Source of the DNA: Nitrososphaerota archaeon
Lineage (GTDB): Archaea > Thermoproteota > Nitrososphaeria > Conexivisphaerales > DTJL01
DNA length: 64,000 nucleotides
NCBI GenBank assembly: GCA_021324115.1
Contig: JAJPJS010000013.1
Location: 1-64,000, forward strand
Direction of reading: 5' to 3'
The translations under genes and the position numbers were made by a program. The notes beneath the pieces are model-generated. The model was not told where the DNA came from. It worked only from the letters and a program-made list of their open reading frames with translations, and did not search any database. The number at the start of each line of letters is the position of its first letter. Within the stretch, counting starts at the first letter, position 1. This document shows, in pieces, positions 38,185 through 49,680 of the stretch.

Positions 38185-39840
38185 TCATCTTTTCAACATG
38201 GGTATTTTGATCCCTTTTTTCCTGGCGGTATCTATTGCTGCTTCGTAACCCGCATCCGCATGTCTCGCAACGCCAATCCCTGGGTCATTGGTGAGACAGG
38301 TCACGACCCGTCTTTCTCCTTCATCGGTACCATCCGCAACCACAACCAGACCTGCATGAATTGAATAACCGATTCCGACTCCTCCTCCATGGTGAACGGA
38401 AACCCACGAGGCGCCCGAAACCGCGTTCAGTAGCGCATTCAGGATCGGCCAGTCTGCGATTGCGTCACTACCATCCTTCATTCCTTCTGTTTCCCTGTAA
38501 GGAGATGCGACAGAACCCGAATCCAGATGGTCCCTTCCGATCACGATGGGGGCGGAAAGCGTGCCCTCCCGAACCATTTGATTTATTATTCTGCCGAATT
38601 TGGCTCTTTCTCCGTACCCCAGCCAGCACACCCTTGCAGGCAACCCCTGAAATGTTACGGAGTCGTGGGCCTTTTTTATCCACCTCGTGAGGGACTTGTT
38701 CGACGAGAATTCTCGAAGAACCACCTCATCCGTCTTGTAAATATCCTCGGGGTCTCCTGAAAGTGCGACCCATCTGAAGGGTCCCCTTCCCTCACAGAAG
38801 AGGGGCCTTATGTATTCGCTCACAAACCCGGGGATCCTGAATGCATCGTCGACCCCGGATTCTTGAGCGAGCTTTCTCAGGTTGTTGCCATACTCAAACG
38901 CTACCGCGCCCTTCTCCTGCATCTTCAGCAATGAGTTGACATGAACTCTCACAGAGCTTTTGACTCTTTCAAGATACCCATCTCTGTCACCTCTCCTCAT
39001 CTCCGAAGCCTCCTCGAGTGTCATACCGGAAGGAATGTAACCGATCAAAGGGTCATGAGCCGAAGTTTGATCTGTCACCACATCGGGAATAAAACCGGAC
39101 TCGAGAAGGTTTGGAATGACCTCTGCGGCGTTCCCGAGCACGGCGATTGATATAGCCTTGCCTTCCTTCGCATTCGACTTAGCTATTCTGAGCGCTTCTC
39201 CTGCATCCTCTGTGAAAACGTCACAATAATCTGTGTCCATTCTCCTCTTGATGGCTCTTCTGTCGACCTCCACGATTATCGCGACGCCATCATTCATTGT
39301 CACCGCAAGCGGCTGGGCACCTCCCATTTCACCGAGTCCGGCAGAAAGTACGATGCGGCCCTTCAGGCTCCCCCCGAAGTGTCTGTCAGCAATGGCAGCA
39401 AGAGTCTCGTAGGTTCCTTGAAGTATGCCCTGAGTCCCGATGTATATCCAGCTGCCCGCAGTCATCTGGCCGAACATGGTCAGTCCCCGCTGTTCCAGTT
39501 CCCTGAAGTAGCTCCAATCTGCCCACTTCGGAACGATCATTGCATTTGATATCAGAACTCGAGGCGAAGATGCAGACGTCTTAAAAACTCCCACCGGCTT
39601 TCCTGACTGAATGAGAAGCGTCTCGTCGTTTTCGAGCTCCCGTAAGGAGGCTACAATGGCGTCGTAAGCTTCCCAATTTCTTGCCGCCTTACCACTTCCT
39701 CCATAAACTATGAGATTCTCTGGATCCTTGGCTACGTCAGGGTCGAGATTGTTCATCAGCATTCTCAGAGCGGCTTCCTGAGCCCAACCCTTACAGGATA
39801 TTTCACTCCCACGCGGCGCTCTTACCACTCTCTTCAGCAT
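38185..39840 (-). CDS. hutU: Urocanate hydratase
   Basis: A 551-residue enzyme when started at the ATG at 39838-39840; an upstream in-frame extension would run into hutI and is rejected. Family marks are [19 protein letters not shown] at the N-terminus, [20 protein letters not shown] for NAD+, and [17 protein letters not shown]. It converts urocanate to imidazolonepropionate. It is transcribed divergently from hutI from a shared 80-base promoter region. Confidence 0.96.
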
Positions 39841-39870
39841 GCTTATCGTATTAACAAAGCCTGCAGAAGT

Positions 39871-39877
39871 ATATAAA
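39871..39877. promoter_or_regulatory. Bidirectional TATA element between hutU and hutI
   Basis: ATATAAA on the plus strand precedes the hutI ATG by about 43-49 bases (with a GGAG Shine-Dalgarno 10 bases before the start), and its complement TTTATAT precedes the hutU ATG by about 31-37 bases, which suggests a very short leader for hutU. Confidence 0.5.
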
Positions 39878-39919
39878 TTACAATCGAATCCGGTCAAGTA
39901 GGAACAGGAGATACAGCCG

Positions 39920-41173
39920 ATGCCTCCAGACCTGGCCGTGGTCAACATTTCACAGCTGGTTACAAACTCCAAGTGCAGTGTGGGGCAAACGGTCGATGAA
40001 GATTCTCTGGGAATAATAAACGATGGAGCCATGATTGTCGATAATGGTAAGATAACATGGACAGGCAGTATGCAGCAGTATAGAGCTCTCAATTTGGGGA
40101 AACCCGGTCGACTGATAGATGCCACGGGTCGACTGGTCACCCCCGGGTTCGTGGACCCTCACACACACCTTGTTTTCGGGGGGAGTCGTGAAGATGAGTT
40201 TGAGAGGAAGTTGAAAGGTGAAAGTTACAAGCAGATACTCGACTCCGGGGGAGGTATCAAGCGCACCATCATGTCCACTCGGGAATCTTCTGTGGAAGCT
40301 CTTTTTGACGCAGCCCAGTCTCGACTTAAGCAACTTATTTCATGTGGTGTGACCACCATAGAGGTCAAAACGGGATACGGACAGGACCTGAACACCGAGG
40401 AGAAGATTCTGAAGGTGGCGCAACTTCTGGAGGAACATTCTGGTATAGATATCATACCAACCTTCCTGGGGCTCCATTCGACACCTCCAGAATACGGATC
40501 GGCTTCGGACTATACAAGATACATCATACGAGATGTCCTTCCCAAAATAGCCACCTTGTCATATCGGCCGGTCTTCTCCGATTGCTTCTGCGAATCAGGT
40601 ATTTTCGACCAGGACCTATGTCGATCCTACCTCAAAGCATCTTCAACCTTTGGATTTCGATTGAAGATTCATGCGGACGAATTCGGTGCATCGGGCGGGG
40701 CCGAGCTCGCCGCAGAAACGGGATGCACCTCTGCGGACCACCTTGAAAACAGCACAGAGGCTGGTTTGCTTTCGATGGCTGAAAGAGGCGTCGTGGCTGT
40801 CCTGTTGCCGGCGACCGCTCTGTACAGTGGTATCAAACCGCCGGATGCGAAGAGGATTCAGAAACTTGGGTGCACGATTGCGCTGGGAACCGACCTCAGT
40901 CCCAATTCCTGGGTCGAATCACCTCAGTTGGTCATGATGCTGGCGTGCACCCAGATGGGGCTCTCACCGGCGCAGGCCCTATCTGCGTTTACATTCGGTG
41001 CCTCACTCGCCTTGGCGCGGGACGACACAGGGAGGCTGGTGCCCGGAGCGAAAGCAGACTTTGTTATACATGAAGTTCCAGACTACAGATTCCTTGTGTA
41101 CAGGATAGGTGGGCAATATGTGAGCTCGGTATTCAAATCTGGTGTTCAGATATACAGGAAACAGCAGGACTGA
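39920..41173 (+). CDS. hutI: Imidazolonepropionase
   Basis: A 417-residue amidohydrolase. [10 protein letters not shown] holds the first two metal-binding histidines, and [18 protein letters not shown] and [11 protein letters not shown] are further HutI hallmarks. It opens imidazolonepropionate to formiminoglutamate. Next in the pathway, hutH and hutG follow downstream on opposite strands. Confidence 0.96.
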
Positions 41174-41174
41174 A

Positions 41175-42650
41175 TCATGGCTTCATTAAGCGTGAAGCGA
41201 GCGCCTCGATATCATTGCCAAGCGGCCTGTCGCCCGAAATCGGATGGCTTACGGACCTGACTGTTTTGAGCAGTGAGACAGAGTGAGACGAAAGTCCGGC
41301 GAGATCACTCGAACTCAATGCGTTAGAGCTGCACAGAAGTTCTATTGAAAGAATCTTTGCAACATTCTCCGATACCTTAAGGGCCTTCAATCCCGCGTTC
41401 ACCCCATGGCTTGCATGGTCTTCCACTCCACCGGACACGTTTGCAGGGTAAGAAGAGGAGGGATGAATCAGGGTCGAATTCTCATTCATCAGTGCGGTGG
41501 CCGTGTATTCAGTCAGCATCAGACCCGACTCCAGCCCTGGCTTGCTTGCAAAAAACGCTCTTTTTCCTTCGCTGTACCGCATGAGCTGATGTATTCTGGC
41601 CAGCGACAGGTCGCCCAAATAGGAAAGCGCGAGCGAAAGAAGGTCAAGCGCCATCGCAACGGGTTGGGCGTGAAAGTTCCCCCCGTGCAGAATCACACCA
41701 GCCTCATTCATTACAGGGTTATCTGTGACCGCATTCAACTCGGTGTTCACAAGGGCTTGGGCGAAGGATACAGCATCGTACACCGAACCATGAACCTGAG
41801 GTGAACATCTTATCGAGTAAGGGTCCTGCGGGACGGGCGTATCGCGAACGTGCTTGCTGCCCTGAAGTTTGGTGCGGATGTCCCTGGCCACAAGCACCTG
41901 GCCCAATTGACCCCTAAGTTGCATCAATTCCTCATCGAAGGATTGCATGTTGGCTCGCAGGACTTCCCCTGTCAGGGAGACGCAGGAGTTCGCCATATCG
42001 AGCAATTTCCTTCCCAGAACAACTGCCTGGCATGCCAGCGCGGCTGTAAAGCACGTTCCGTTGATCAGGGATATTCCTTCCTTTGAATCAAGTGTCAGAG
42101 GAGCAATGCCAGCCTCTCGGAGGGCTGGTTTTGTTTCCATCAGAGTCCCCTTGTAAAACGACCTACCCTCTCCTATCATCGCCAGCGCCATGTACGCGGA
42201 TGGAGCAAGGTCTCCGCTGGCACCGAGAGAACCAATCTGAGGGATAAATGGGACGATCCTTCTATTCAAAAATTCGGCCAACGTAGTAGCAACCTCGGGT
42301 CGGACACAGCTGTTTCCTTTCAAGAGACTGTTGAGTTTGACGGTCATCGCTTCCCTCACTATTTCTTCAGGAAATGGCGGACCTACACCAGCCGAATGAC
42401 TTCTGACCAGGTTAGTCTGAAGCTTTCTAGCATCTCTCTCGGAAATGTGAGTGTTTGAGAGCATGCCAAAGCCTGTGTTCACACCATAGATCGATTCTTT
42501 CTTACTGATTTTTGTCTCGAGCCTCTTTCTAAACTCACCCATCCTCTTCAATGATTTCTTTGATAAAGCGACCTTTTCGCCCATGCACCCTATTTGATAC
42601 AGCGTGTCTACGGTGAGGGATTCCCCGTCTAAAACCCGCACGACTTCCAT
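41175..42650 (-). CDS. hutH: Histidine ammonia-lyase
   Basis: A 491-residue lyase. Ala144-Ser145-Gly146 in GSLGASGDLAPSAY forms the MIO electrophile, and the YGVNTGFG segment at 55-62 and QDPYSIRCSPQVHG are active-site hallmarks. It deaminates histidine to urocanate. Its stop is one base from that of hutI (convergent). Confidence 0.97.
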   Translation of the reverse strand: MEVVRVLDGESLTVDTLYQIGCMGEKVALSKKSLKRMGEFRKRLETKISKKESIYGVNTGFGMLSNTHISERDARKLQTNLVRSHSAGVGPPFPEEIVREAMTVKLNSLLKGNSCVRPEVATTLAEFLNRRIVPFIPQIGSLGASGDLAPSAYMALAMIGEGRSFYKGTLMETKPALREAGIAPLTLDSKEGISLINGTCFTAALACQAVVLGRKLLDMANSCVSLTGEVLRANMQSFDEELMQLRGQLGQVLVARDIRTKLQGSKHVRDTPVPQDPYSIRCSPQVHGSVYDAVSFAQALVNTELNAVTDNPVMNEAGVILHGGNFHAQPVAMALDLLSLALSYLGDLSLARIHQLMRYSEGKRAFFASKPGLESGLMLTEYTATALMNENSTLIHPSSSYPANVSGGVEDHASHGVNAGLKALKVSENVAKILSIELLCSSNALSSSDLAGLSSHSVSLLKTVRSVSHPISGDRPLGNDIEALASRLMKP

Positions 42651-42718
42651 TTGTCGGATGCGTCTTAATATTCTTTCGTTCCAGAACGTTAAATCTTATC
42701 ACACAGAACCTTCACTGT

Positions 42719-43684
42719 ATGGCGATGAAGGAACTTTCCCCTTCCGCGTATCCTGTACCAACCTACAAGGACCCCTTTGATAGAAGAATCACTTCCATCA
42801 TCAGACGCGGGCGAACAGCGAAAGACGGATGGCTGAATCTTCTCGGAGTACCCTTTGATGGAGCAACACTCGGAAGAAAGGGATCTTCCCTTGCTCCCAA
42901 CTTGATAAGGGAAGCCCTGAGATTTAATTCGAACTTTAACGCAGAAAATGGGAGCCGGCTTGCGGATGCAAAGATAAACGACATTGGCAACGTGAACTTT
43001 CAGAGTAATGACATAGAGAAGGTTCACGATATCATATACAATTTAGTTTACAAGTCATTGAGAGAAAAGTCGCTACTGGTTCTCCTCGGAGGAGACAACA
43101 GTATATCTTTGCCCAGCATTCTGGCTTGTTCCCGGCGTTATCACAATGTCGGCCTGATAGTCATCGATTCCCATTTTGACCTCAGAGGAAGAATCGCAGG
43201 AAAACCCACAAGTGGTTCTTCATACGGTCTTGCACTGGATTCTTTGGGTTCAAGACTCGATGGAAGATTCGTAGAAATAGGGATTCATGGGTTTCTGAAC
43301 TCATACGATTATCAAATGAAAGCAGAGCGGCTTGGTGTATCTGTCTTTACACCAGATGATGTCGCTCGTTTCGGACCTACAAGAACAGCAAGAAGAGCAT
43401 TCAAAATTGCGTCAGAGGGAGCTGACTGCGTCTATCTGAGTTTGGACCTAGATGCGGTGAGGCTTTCCGAGGTTTCAGGTGTGAGCGCACCAAGTCCCGC
43501 CGGATTGTCATCCCGCGAAGTGTTTGATATAGTGTATTTCGTAGCCAGCCGAAGGATCACCAGATGCGCCGACATAGTGGAGACTTCTCCTCCACTGGAC
43601 CCGACAGGGAGGTCTCAGATTGTCGCCGCATCAGCCCTTCTTTACATGGCTGCGGGATTTGAATTAAGAAGGACTCTTTGGTGA
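42719..43684 (+). CDS. hutG: Formimidoylglutamase (arginase/ureohydrolase family)
   Basis: A 321-residue ureohydrolase. Metal motifs are D150-S-H152-F-D154 and D243-L-D245. In the first motif, GGDNS at 124-128, Asn127 stands where arginases and agmatinases have a metal-binding His; I recall Asn in some HutG enzymes, which would favour formimidoylglutamase, but have not checked. The SGSSYG and linkage to hutU, hutI and hutH support the final step, hydrolysis of formiminoglutamate to glutamate and formamide. Confidence 0.88.
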   Translation: MAMKELSPSAYPVPTYKDPFDRRITSIIRRGRTAKDGWLNLLGVPFDGATLGRKGSSLAPNLIREALRFNSNFNAENGSRLADAKINDIGNVNFQSNDIEKVHDIIYNLVYKSLREKSLLVLLGGDNSISLPSILACSRRYHNVGLIVIDSHFDLRGRIAGKPTSGSSYGLALDSLGSRLDGRFVEIGIHGFLNSYDYQMKAERLGVSVFTPDDVARFGPTRTARRAFKIASEGADCVYLSLDLDAVRLSEVSGVSAPSPAGLSSREVFDIVYFVASRRITRCADIVETSPPLDPTGRSQIVAASALLYMAAGFELRRTLW

Positions 43685-44716: not shown

Positions 44717-46843
44717 TTGATTCAGTCAGATTCAGTCATAGATCAACTTCGGGTCGTATCATTTTCTCCTTTCGTAAAATCTTTTAGACCACATCTTCTT
44801 GACCAGAGGGGTCTAAGTAATTTGAGTATACAAACATCTATTCGACGCGTAAAGACAATATTTTCCGTTATTGCTTCTCCGAGCCGTTTGGAGGTTTTGC
44901 AGATCCTCAATACGAAGGGCCCGATGACATATTCTGAACTCAAGACTCAGGCTGGATTCAAAGCCAAAAAGGAGTCCGGGAAGTTCGCATACCACCTGCG
45001 CAAGCTCCTGAGACAGAACCTGATAGCTCAGAACCGTGCAGAACGCAAGTACATGCTCACCCAACTCGGAAGACTCGTGCTGAACTCTTCAAAGGAGATC
45101 GAGAAGCAGGCGCTCATGGAAAGTGGAAGATTATTCGTAAGAAGCAGTGAGCATAAGATGGAGGAGTTTACAACGGACAGAATAGTGCACTCCCTCGTAA
45201 CCGAGGCTGGAATGCCTGTGGAGCTGGCCCAGAGGGTTGCCAGTGAAGCTGAATCGAGGATTTACAAGTTTCAGACTGCATATCTGACGGCACCGCTTAT
45301 TCGTGAGCTCGTCAATTCAATCCTGATCGAAGAAGGGCTGGAGGAGTACAGGCACAGGCTGAGCAGGCTGGGCATGCCCGTATACGATGTCACTGAAGAG
45401 TTCGAAAAGATTGGTCAGAGCCCCTACGGCGTCGACTACCTGTTGGCCCAGACCGCCAGCTCCGTGCTCTCGGAGTATCTTCTCCTGATTCAACTGCCGA
45501 GAGACATTACCGATTCCCATCTTTCGGGCGACATCCACATTTCTAATGTTGGATACTGGAGTCTGAAACCAGACACCATCTTTGTCGACCTCTCGGTCGA
45601 TTCGAAGGGGATCCAGAGCGCGGAGGGTAAATTCCCGTTTCTCCCCAGACTCGATTCGGAGGAGGACGGGGTGGGGAAACTTCTAGCGATGAATCACCTT
45701 CTTTGCAAGGAGACTGGACGTGACATCTACTACGCCGGTTTCTCGGGGTACCTTCCTGACAGGGAAGGGCCCGAATATGGAAGACTCTTCAATTTTCTGG
45801 CCTATTCATATTCCTCAACAAATGAAAAGCCGCATGTGATGCTCGAAATCGATGCCAAGGCGGGGAAAACGAGATTCCCGAAGATGCTTCAGGGGTACTT
45901 GCAGTATGCCAAGTCAACACCCATTCCGTCGATCGGAATCGCGATACAGAATCCGGAATCTATGAGCAAAGAAGGATACGATGAACTCGTCAATATACTG
46001 AGGAACAACGGACTGGTTTCGCTTAACAGGAACAGCGGGTCTAGACGTTCGTCGTTTGGTGTGGTGGACGAAGGAAACGTCAGGTCTGGCTCCGTTTCCC
46101 TGGACTCTGTCTCTATCAACATGCCAAGGATAGCGCTAGAGGTTGCTAACGATGAGGTATATTACAGAACAAGGGCAAGGTTGCAGCTCGAAAATGCGGT
46201 CAACGCACTCCGTATCAGAAAGAAGCTTATAGAATCAAACATCAAGCGGGGAATTCTTCCGGCGCTGAATATGTTTGAAAATATGGTTTACAACGAATCC
46301 CCCTCACTCAAGGTGAACCTGACCGGGCTCCCGGAATCACTTGTTCTTGTCAACCAGAACGCTTCACCCGGAGAACTTTCTGAGTTGCAAAGGGAAACGA
46401 TCGAATCCGCATACGAATACTTTTCAACACTGTCAGACTCGAATACAAACTATTCTTTGATAATGACGAGCGACGAAAGCTCGATGCGTTTCGTCCAGCT
46501 TGACAGAGCAAAATTCGGCAAGTCAAAGACCAAGGCACTTAGTGCCGACAGATACCCACAGGGGATAACGTTGAGTATGAATGACCTGAGCGGAAAGGAA
46601 AGAATCGATTATGCGAACGATACCATGAAGATAGTGAAGGGTGGCGTACTTACAAGGCTTGTGCTTGAGCTTGGTGACAAGGAAGCGCTGGTCCACGCAG
46701 TGAGCAAAGCAGCTGCCTCGCTTGACTTCTGCGTGCTTGCGCCCGTTGTAAGGGTGTGCAAGAGGTGTGGAAGAAAGGATTACAAGGACGCCGTCAGGTG
46801 TACAGTCTGTGGTGGACCGATGATAGCCGTAAACACTGCATGA
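44717..46843 (+). CDS. wHTH - ATP-cone - NrdD-like - zinc-ribbon protein (candidate nucleotide-sensing regulator)
   Basis: A 708-residue protein of four parts. Residues 47-122 form an ArsR-like winged helix (SPSRLEVLQILNTKGPMTYSEL, then FAYHLRKLLRQNLI). Residues 144-222 are an ATP-cone ending YRHRLSRLGMPVYDV. Next comes a long stretch resembling the N-terminal half of anaerobic reductase NrdD (DYLLAQTASSVLSEY, HLSGDIHISNVGYWSL). The C-terminal end has a zinc ribbon CKRCGRKDYKDAVRCTVC. I do not see the NrdD glycyl-radical motif, so it is probably not an active reductase. Starts TTG at 44717 or, better placed before the wHTH, TTG at 44822. It is convergent with nrdJ. Reading it as a dATP/ATP-dependent transcription regulator is inference. 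Confidence 0.75.
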   Translation: MIQSDSVIDQLRVVSFSPFVKSFRPHLLDQRGLSNLSIQTSIRRVKTIFSVIASPSRLEVLQILNTKGPMTYSELKTQAGFKAKKESGKFAYHLRKLLRQNLIAQNRAERKYMLTQLGRLVLNSSKEIEKQALMESGRLFVRSSEHKMEEFTTDRIVHSLVTEAGMPVELAQRVASEAESRIYKFQTAYLTAPLIRELVNSILIEEGLEEYRHRLSRLGMPVYDVTEEFEKIGQSPYGVDYLLAQTASSVLSEYLLLIQLPRDITDSHLSGDIHISNVGYWSLKPDTIFVDLSVDSKGIQSAEGKFPFLPRLDSEEDGVGKLLAMNHLLCKETGRDIYYAGFSGYLPDREGPEYGRLFNFLAYSYSSTNEKPHVMLEIDAKAGKTRFPKMLQGYLQYAKSTPIPSIGIAIQNPESMSKEGYDELVNILRNNGLVSLNRNSGSRRSSFGVVDEGNVRSGSVSLDSVSINMPRIALEVANDEVYYRTRARLQLENAVNALRIRKKLIESNIKRGILPALNMFENMVYNESPSLKVNLTGLPESLVLVNQNASPGELSELQRETIESAYEYFSTLSDSNTNYSLIMTSDESSMRFVQLDRAKFGKSKTKALSADRYPQGITLSMNDLSGKERIDYANDTMKIVKGGVLTRLVLELGDKEALVHAVSKAAASLDFCVLAPVVRVCKRCGRKDYKDAVRCTVCGGPMIAVNTA

Positions 46844-46993
46844 GCTCTTCATAAACTTCTGATCCGAATTTTTTTATGAGTGTTTGCAGACAAGACAAAA
46901 ATATCCTCTGAGTTTTTACATTTAGCATAGGTGTCGAGTCGTTTGGCCGCGCTTCAATGAGCTAAGATATCCCTGCACGGCATGGCCATTCGT

Positions 46994-49519
46994 TTATGCG
47001 GTCGGGCAGTAGCTGAACCCGCATATGGGGCATGTAGCACACCCCTCCTTGAACTCCAGTTTCGTTGCGCAAACAGGACAGATACCGTTGTTTTCTGACG
47101 TGTCTGAGACTGGAATTGTGCGCGAGTGCGCAGGAGGTGCAAACACTAGATTAGTCGTACCTCCATCGCTTTCTGTCTGAGCGGGAGGGGACTGCAGCAC
47201 CTGACTCTTGATAGATTTGTCCCTGAACACTGTAACATCCTTGCATCCCAGTTTGTACGCCTGGAAATAGGCGGTCTTGATATCTTCAACCGTGGCACTC
47301 TCGGGGAGGTTCGTCGTCTTCGATATCGACGAATCCACCCATTTCTGGAAAGTCGCTATTGCCTTGATGTGGTCGAGTGGAGATATGTCCATCGCCGTGA
47401 CAAATACCTTCCTCAATCTTTCGGGAATGTAAGGTATCTTCTGTACACCACCGCCGTTTTCGACCACCTGTTTGATCAGGTCGTCATCGTAGAGCCCCTC
47501 CTTTTTCATGACCTTCTCGAAGACACGGTCCACATAATAGAAGCTCCCTATTGAGACATTCTTTTCGTACACAAGAGAGTAAACGGGCTCTATGCCGCTG
47601 CTGCAGCCAGCAATCATGGATATACTGCCGGTGGGTGCTATTATCGTTGTATATCCATTCCTTATTCCCTTTTGGGCGATTTCTTCGGCTAATGCGGCCC
47701 AATCGAAGTTCCAGCAGCTTTTGTCCTCGAAGCTGCTGAATGGCAGTTTACCTTCGGCATAGCTGCTCTGTTTGAACGTGGGTATAACGCCCCTCTCCTG
47801 CGCAAGTTCGATGGATGCCTTTTTCGAATGGAAGTTTATGAACTCCATCAGCCTTTCCATGAATTTGCGCCCCTCGTCTGTATTGTAAGGCAGTCCCATT
47901 TCGAACAACAGGTCGGCAAGCCCCATCACACCCAAGCCAATTTTTCTTGTGGCCAGGGTCATTTTTTCAATTTCCTTCAGGGGATACTTGTTCACATCGA
48001 TCACGTTGTCGAGGAAGCGGGTAGCCGTGTACACGGCCGTCTTCAGTGATTCCCAGTCAACCTGAGCATTACCGTTTTCATCCTCCACGACAAAGGCGTC
48101 TACGTTGATGCTGCCCAGGTTGCACGATTCGTTAGGGTAAAGCAGCACTTCTCCGCACGGGTTGGTCGTGACGATGGGTCCCAACTCCTTGAGGAACGGA
48201 TTGAATTCATTCACTCTGTCCAGGAATATCACGCCGGGCTCGGCGCTTTCCCATGCCTGATAGGCGATCATGTCGAAAAGCTGCCTGGGGTTCACCTTCC
48301 GGACTATCTCGCCATTCCTTGGGTTGACAAGCGGGAATGGCTCGTTCTTTTCGAAGTACTTCCAGAACTCCGGCTTTATCAGAACGGAGATGTTGAAGTT
48401 CCTGAGAGCCTTGTTTCCTTCCTTTGCCTTTACGAACTTTTCTATATCCGGATGGTCTATGTTCAGTATTCCCATGTTGGCTCCCCTTCGTATTCCGCCC
48501 TGCTTTATCACCTCGGTCATGGTATCAAAGAGTCTCATGAAACTGACAGGGCCGGAGGCCATTCCTGAGGTGCTTCGTACGAAGTCTCCCTCGGGTCTCA
48601 ACTTTGAGAAGTTGTACCCAACACCACCCCCCGCTTTGAATATTATCGCCGCATTCCCGAGCGTTTCCATTATGCTGTCAATCGAGTCTTCAATGTCCAG
48701 TACGAAGCATGCCGAACCCATTCCGAGCCAGTTCCCAAAATTAGCTATTGCTGGGGTGTTGGGAAGGAATCTGCGGCTCACCATTATCTGGAAGTAGGCG
48801 TCTACTTCATGCTCATACTTATCAAAATCCCCCGACTCGAACATCCTGATGAGCTCGGACCAGCCGACCCTGAGTCTTCTTTCTTCGTTGAACCTTGTAT
48901 ACAGCCTCCGCACGGCTTCGACATGAAACTCATTCAACTCATACTTCCCTAGCTTCAGGGCAAAGGCACCCGCACCGGGTGGTTCTCGTGTTTCCTGCGA
49001 ACCGGTCACGTCATAGACTCTTGGGTCGTAGAATATACTCGGCAGTACTGTGTGAACAGCAACACGGGTGAAAAGAGCCTTGGGAGTTTCCAGGAGCGCT
49101 CCACGTTCATCCTTCTTCAGGTATCTGGCCTTGAGGACGCGAAGGGCATTGACATCGAAGGACTTATCCACTTCATCGATTTCAGACTTCTCCAGAACCT
49201 TCTTCTTTTCATCCCTGAGTTCTGTCCTCTTCTGCCTGTACAGAATGTACGCCTTTGCGACTCTTACATCTCCTCTTTCTATTAATACCCTCTCGACTAC
49301 ATCCTGAATATCTTCAACGCCCGGCACGGCCTCGCCTGGGAAAAGTGATTCCAGCTTTCTGACCACTTCGACGGCCAGTCGCTCGGCCAGTGTCCTGTCC
49401 CTTCCACCGGTTGCCCTGATCGCCTTCCAAATTGCCTCGGTGATCTTCGTTGGCTCAAAACGGACGACCCTACCATCCCTCTTTTTTACACTCTTGATTC
49501 GAGATTCTATTGCTAGCAT
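46994..49519 (-). CDS. nrdJ: Ribonucleotide reductase, adenosylcobalamin-dependent (class II)
   Basis: An 841-residue reductase. An N-terminal ATP-cone (about 8-100) is followed by the ten-stranded barrel: GMGSACFVLDIEDSIDSI, KAGGGVGYNFSKLRP, and NPCGEVLLYPNESCNLGSINVD with the radical-site cysteine. The C-terminal tail has CPVC...CPICGFSYCP, a zinc ribbon with redox cysteines. It makes deoxyribonucleotides independent of oxygen using B12. It faces the ATP-cone regulator-like gene tail to tail. Confidence 0.95.
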   Translation of the reverse strand: MLAIESRIKSVKKRDGRVVRFEPTKITEAIWKAIRATGGRDRTLAERLAVEVVRKLESLFPGEAVPGVEDIQDVVERVLIERGDVRVAKAYILYRQKRTELRDEKKKVLEKSEIDEVDKSFDVNALRVLKARYLKKDERGALLETPKALFTRVAVHTVLPSIFYDPRVYDVTGSQETREPPGAGAFALKLGKYELNEFHVEAVRRLYTRFNEERRLRVGWSELIRMFESGDFDKYEHEVDAYFQIMVSRRFLPNTPAIANFGNWLGMGSACFVLDIEDSIDSIMETLGNAAIIFKAGGGVGYNFSKLRPEGDFVRSTSGMASGPVSFMRLFDTMTEVIKQGGIRRGANMGILNIDHPDIEKFVKAKEGNKALRNFNISVLIKPEFWKYFEKNEPFPLVNPRNGEIVRKVNPRQLFDMIAYQAWESAEPGVIFLDRVNEFNPFLKELGPIVTTNPCGEVLLYPNESCNLGSINVDAFVVEDENGNAQVDWESLKTAVYTATRFLDNVIDVNKYPLKEIEKMTLATRKIGLGVMGLADLLFEMGLPYNTDEGRKFMERLMEFINFHSKKASIELAQERGVIPTFKQSSYAEGKLPFSSFEDKSCWNFDWAALAEEIAQKGIRNGYTTIIAPTGSISMIAGCSSGIEPVYSLVYEKNVSIGSFYYVDRVFEKVMKKEGLYDDDLIKQVVENGGGVQKIPYIPERLRKVFVTAMDISPLDHIKAIATFQKWVDSSISKTTNLPESATVEDIKTAYFQAYKLGCKDVTVFRDKSIKSQVLQSPPAQTESDGGTTNLVFAPPAHSRTIPVSDTSENNGICPVCATKLEFKEGCATCPICGFSYCPTA

Positions 49520-49680
49520 GCCATCACCTATTCAAATCCTCCAGCCTATTATGGACGCAGTTATTAAGCAGTCATATATCATTATTTTGACAAAACAAAA
49601 CCGCCGGATGCTGGAGGAGTTCTTCCAGGAAGTCGCTCCTCAATTTTCATAGACAACAGATTTTGACAAAACGGCTGTTC

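Follow-up and report, generated by a model that had tools for sequence, protein, structure and literature searches.

Trigger enzymes and other enzyme-derived regulators, such as PutA and BirA, place a metabolic enzyme fold in the service of gene control. The genes for bacterial ribonucleotide reductases (RNRs) are repressed by NrdR (TIGR00244), a protein of about 150 amino acids which joins an N-terminal, DNA-binding zinc ribbon to an ATP-cone, and which is linked to RNRs of several classes. The oligomeric state of NrdR changes with ATP or dATP, and it binds to boxes in RNR promoters. NrdR is rare in archaea (PMC9110341), and gene-level control of archaeal dNTP supply is therefore largely open. 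The archaeal family described here resembles NrdR in its ATP-cone, its zinc ribbon, its linkage to RNR genes of several classes and its expected role in dNTP feedback, but its DNA-binding candidate is an N-terminal winged helix, its zinc ribbon is C-terminal and NrdD-derived, and what appears to be a whole dead NrdD lies between them. With NrdD itself (PF13597, TIGR02487; PDB 9dca, 4coi and 1h78) the family shares the fold and the order of ATP-cone, barrel and zinc ribbon, but it lacks the catalytic cysteines and the glycyl-radical loop, and carries the winged helix in addition. An N-terminal winged helix is also common to archaeal HTH_20/DUF7347 (ArsR-like) regulators, from which the family differs in having the inactive reductase as its effector part. 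In contrast to trigger enzymes, catalysis appears to have been lost and the fold is that of an RNR, a fold for which the open papers searched gave no account of a regulatory role.

The window analyzed comprises 64,000 nucleotides of a Nitrososphaerota archaeon contig (JAJPJS010000013.1, positions 1 to 64,000). The regulator candidate occupies an intact single open frame at 44717-46843 (+) and, as an earlier note on this DNA described, converges with a class II reductase gene, nrdJ, at 46994-49519 (-). The features are as follows.

44822-46843, + strand: regulator gene (winged helix-turn-helix, ATP-cone, inactive NrdD, zinc ribbon), 673 aa, probable TTG start
44774-44789, + strand: TATA/BRE-like element GTAAAATCTTTTAGAC, probable regulator promoter, judged by its conservation
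44855-45082, + strand: winged helix-turn-helix (HTH_20/DUF7347), with a nearly invariant GKFAYHLRKLL helix
45134-45382, + strand: degenerate ATP-cone, with residues invariant in 84 of 84 members
45383-46744, + strand: inactive NrdD alpha/beta barrel, from domain match and predicted fold
45509-45577, + strand: loop of the NrdD PYC (T4 Cys79 type) site, here TDSHLSGDIHISNVGYWSLKPDT, with the Cys lost
46022-46072, + strand: segment aligned to the NrdD MCCRL (T4 Cys290 type) loop, without Cys
46757-46810, + strand: zinc ribbon (CxxC...CxxC), a homologue of the C-terminal zinc site of NrdD
46994-49519, - strand: nrdJ, encoding a class II (adenosylcobalamin) ribonucleotide reductase that carries an ATP-cone itself (NrdJ_Z, E 2e-216)
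49571-49592, - strand: candidate regulatory element upstream of nrdJ, TGTCAAAATAATGATATATGAC, weak, the pattern having been chosen after looking

Although the frame is open from 44717, translation probably begins at TTG 44822, which is preceded by GAGGGG. Four genomes of the window's family preserve the element at 44774-44789 at the DNA level, even though it is out of frame in one of them (L091); it therefore appears promoter-like rather than coding, in keeping with the later start. The window's genome is placed in class Nitrososphaeria by its nearest named relatives, for example L111 ('Nitrososphaeria archaeon'; 62% identical), and no active-type reductase other than nrdJ was found in it. Beside the regulator, at 38185-43684, stands a histidine-utilization-like cluster which includes a urocanase-like gene, an imidazolonepropionase-like gene (39920-41173), a histidine ammonia-lyase-like gene (41175-42650) and an arginase-family gene (42719-43684); these names come from reading of the open frames, the arginase family alone having a domain match.

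Pfam, profile comparison and predicted fold agree that a winged helix, an ATP-cone, an NrdD-like segment and a zinc ribbon are joined in one protein, as was first proposed from the sequence. The N-terminus matches the winged-helix family HTH_20/DUF7347 (residues 47-122, E 4e-11), and its recognition region, GF..K.ESGKFAYHL..L, ranks with the best-conserved stretches of the chain. The ATP-cone match (residues 140-211, E 1e-4) falls under the curated cut-off in the window member, and is recovered in all 31 aligned members at E 0.01 (best 1.6e-10); by profile, the regulator cone aligns with those of NrdJ and NrdD at 98.7% probability (E 2e-16). NRDD is matched over residues 437-699 (E 1.4e-23), and in clade A, the group which includes the window protein, only the C-terminal half of NrdD is recognized by sequence search. 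An AlphaFold model built from 31 homologues (pLDDT 85.7, pTM 0.78) nevertheless contains the whole NrdD barrel, with every one of its 36 top-ranked PDB matches being a class III reductase (9dca first, E 1.6e-18, TM 0.55). The middle region, earlier called NrdD-like and itself missed by sequence search, is thus NrdD by predicted fold. The window protein scores 81 bits against an NrdD family cut-off of 326, and the presence of both the barrel fold and the C-terminal zinc site denotes common descent with NrdD. The zinc ribbon, previously likened to that of NrdR, is the normal C-terminal zinc site of NrdD; the parallel with NrdR holds for expected function and for the ATP-cone, but fails for the DNA-binding part. 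An NrdR orthologue was rejected, as an NCBIfam scan gave no TIGR00244 match in the protein and there was none in the genome.

Within the cone, R142, F151, E163, T191, R196, L203 and G219 are invariant in 84 of 84 members, and V-R-[TS]-S stands in place of KRDG. In other ATP-cones a basic Lys-Arg pair of the phosphate-binding hairpin lies near the phosphates, being Lys7/Arg8 in PcNrdD (PMC11226230) and K50/R51 in NrdR (PMC9110341). As the Arg of this pair stays in the regulator (Arg142, 84/84) and the Lys has become Val or Ile, nucleotide binding by the cone is plausible, in an altered form. Further NrdD residues retained are NxPR, the R..LD motif, and a His which, by comparison with PMC11226230, would be the first of the HxHD substrate-triphosphate motif.

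The catalytic residues were compared by alignment with true NrdD of the same class. At the T4 Cys79 (PYC) position none of the 23 members examined there (10 from clade A, 13 from clade B) has a Cys, and clade A shows an invariant Pro-Asp before or after the lost residue, read as SLKPD in the window protein. The T4 Cys290 (CCR) position is without Cys in 10 of 10 clade A members and has one in 2 of 13 from clade B; among 31 clade A members, the four zinc-ribbon cysteines form the only conserved Cys columns. Clade A chains stop shortly after the ribbon, without a glycyl-radical loop, and in the window protein, which ends 10 residues past it, no glycyl-radical motif was found, as stated before. 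Members of clade B (about 750 aa) retain the tail, but there YSRVxGY has degenerated into sequences like FNRFAST or YSRANAKY and the loop Gly is kept in 2 of 13; this decayed tail is a visible intermediate. The suggestion of a dead reductase was upheld, in that the full NrdD catalytic set was absent from every member inspected in both clades, and no NrdG activase was found in the window's genome. By its residues, then, the reductase part is catalytically dead.

At 92 loci, mostly from Nitrososphaeria, the regulator is the immediate upstream neighbor of nrdJ and is read in the same direction, and at 7, the window included, the two genes converge; owing to an overlap of two collections these counts include some genomes twice, and they draw on relatives that are not independent. 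The tail-to-tail order, which the earlier note took to strengthen the link with RNR, is thus a minority arrangement and probably derived, but the link itself stands on class-wide synteny, exchange of RNR partners and absence of NrdR. Regulators of families f2, f4 and f5 are unlinked to an RNR gene, as are those of most clade B genomes in the sense of adjoining one; among 53 clade B loci, 8 have nrdD and 1 has nrdJ directly downstream of the regulator. Overall, the genomic neighbors of the regulator include RNR genes of both class II and class III. A small conserved gene with a two-CxxC zinc ribbon (CGKCG...CPSCGQ) precedes the regulator in Nitrosopumilaceae loci such as L094, L095 and L102. 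The nrdJ frames of L119, L110, L056, L057 and L062 are very long or interrupted (about 1270 aa, or with LAGLIDADG-like sequence in L119), probably by inteins.

Distribution was assessed in 398 Thermoproteota genomes and in 61 relatives of the window, 35 of which are good genomes. Homologues occur in 46 of these 61 relatives and in 34 of the 35 good genomes. In the relatives, co-occurrence with RNR genes is near-complete, which accords with the link first proposed. The family is present in 270 of the 398 Thermoproteota, ocean ammonia oxidizers among them. Nitrosopumilaceae-like genomes with NrdJ as their sole reductase also carry the regulator, and some Thermoproteota families have nrdJ without it. 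A true NrdD accompanies the regulator in all 26 clade B-type genomes checked, which were picked mainly for lacking an NrdJ match. NrdR was found neither in the window's genome nor in any Nitrososphaeria genome of the sample; it scored above the cut-off in 35 of the 398 genomes, almost all from family f12, where an nrdD lies no more than about 1 kb away (and directly beside it, for example, at G226:C11:243520-246046 and G267:C26:35084-37611). Family f12 also retains the clade B regulator, there away from RNR, and it may be that NrdR and nrdD were imported into these genomes as a pair which then assumed the regulatory link.

Quick, unrooted trees place the enzymes downstream of the regulator in at least seven lineages of two classes: four deep lineages of NrdJ, two of them without an ATP-cone, and three of NrdD. 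Nitrososphaeria regulators across the four NrdJ lineages are about 40-50% identical. Near-identical regulators are found at loci L225 and L245, followed in both by the same intergenic promoter region and by the beginning of a glutaredoxin-like gene, past which the sequence breaks and leads to different nrdD genes. As the regulator is kept while the RNR changes, this exchange fits a promoter-tied regulator better than a protein which contacts one enzyme. The glutaredoxin-like gene (VYTTSGCPRCDMLKKWL...), likely a dedicated reductant, sits between regulator and nrdD in L225, L249, L226, L230 and L261, and that of L245 is truncated where the different nrdD begins. Class II reductases without an ATP-cone adjoin the regulator at L161, L124, L125, L120, L117, L130, L147, L138 and L246, and in these pairs the sole ATP-cone may be that of the regulator.

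Together these findings make it likely, in our judgment, that the protein is a dNTP-sensing transcription regulator of RNR, descended from a class III reductase, with DNA and nucleotide binding inferred. An NrdD-like dimer would present two winged helices, and the ATP-cone, perhaps with the old substrate pocket, would read ATP against dATP. Nucleotide binding would shift the cones as in NrdD and so move the attached DNA-binding heads, and this movement would set transcription of the neighboring RNR gene, whether nrdJ or nrdD; dATP would more likely exert negative feedback than activate. We lean, with somewhat less assurance, towards the broader proposal of a phylum-wide control of RNR, in which a class III reductase that has lost its catalytic function, joined to a winged helix, acts as dNTP sensor and promoter switch, stays fixed while class II and class III enzymes are exchanged, and constitutes an independently arisen counterpart of NrdR. 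No description of such a regulator was found in the open literature searched. If true, a reductase has been turned into a sensor of its own products, and the family offers a concrete answer on dNTP control for the Nitrososphaeria, marine ammonia oxidizers included, and for the group of about 750 aa. With RNR classes changing places while the regulator and promoter before them stay fixed, nature has in effect set up a promoter-swap experiment. More broadly, members could easily be mislabeled as anaerobic reductases, which would credit aerobic archaea with false class III RNR activity.

Four other explanations merit consideration. The retention of the full NrdD fold, together with the first His of HxHD, NxPR and R..LD, might recall a functional anaerobic reductase with an unusual active site, but the clade A members examined have neither of the catalytic cysteines and no glycyl loop, NrdG is missing from the window's genome, and the protein occurs in Nitrosopumilaceae-like genomes with only NrdJ; a functional NrdD was rejected on these grounds, and we regard this reading as very improbable. 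Still more improbable is a pseudogene decaying beside nrdJ, for while NrdD remnants stripped of catalytic residues could be so construed, the frames are intact, residues are invariant over 31 divergent members, and the gene is near-universal in relatives of the window.

The remaining two concern what is regulated, and how. In clade B the regulator converges with pyrB in 26 adjacent cases (and 5 more at a distance) and with pyrI in 5, and several Nitrososphaeria have the order regulator, nrdJ, opposed pyrB, with pyrBI about 3 kb downstream; this arrangement might indicate a winged-helix regulator of wider nucleotide metabolism, specifically pyrimidine synthesis, for which RNR is a neighbor only in some lineages. 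We find this unlikely, given that pyrB is encoded on the other strand, in tail-to-tail orientation and without a common promoter, and that the RNR gene, if present (in clade B, nrdD), mostly fills the slot between regulator and pyrB, directly downstream on the regulator's strand. Slightly less credible is an action by direct contact, whereby the protein serves RNR as an inactive, NrdD-like allosteric partner and the winged helix merely dimerizes. The regulator is itself an RNR homologue with an ATP-cone, which could be supplied in trans to the adjoining cone-less NrdJ of L161, L124, L125, L120, L117, L130, L147 and L138; yet it is kept where its partner has been exchanged, a class II enzyme in some genomes and one of three class III kinds in others, and its winged-helix recognition region is among the best-conserved parts.

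An operator was sought upstream of nrdJ and of the regulator. In Nitrosopumilaceae, TGTnAA-N5-TTGA is conserved some 35-40 bp upstream of the presumed nrdJ TATA box (strict pattern GGTGTnAA-N5-TTGA), and the looser TGTnAA..TGA occurs upstream of nrdJ in 15 of 18 related sequences, against about 1 expected. The window string at 49571-49592 resembles this element, and similar strings are present in 4 of 5 members of the window's family (0.24 expected), a post hoc count in which some lie on the other strand. The element was not enriched upstream of the regulator, nor found in other families, and genome-wide it gave no clear regulon, being only slightly above a reversed-pattern control; it is at most a weak operator candidate. 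No operator common to clades A and B was found. Between regulator and nrdD, the dyad TATACAAAATTTTATAC has a single-site match in three f34 genomes, and is absent from most other clade B genomes. Two further sites from that search, in G349, lie beside integrase-like genes and were set aside as apparently unrelated. There, on two contigs (G349:C9:101215 and G349:C21:44552; loci L281 and L282), stands the perfect palindrome GTATACAATTTTGTATAC, probably part of a mobile element. Finally, TGATC(C/T)AAA is repeated upstream of the regulator's own TATA box in Nitrosopumilaceae loci such as L100, L101 and L109, where TGATC has a density of 18 per kb, compared with 5 in the remaining intergenic DNA, and these strings are possible autoregulatory sites.
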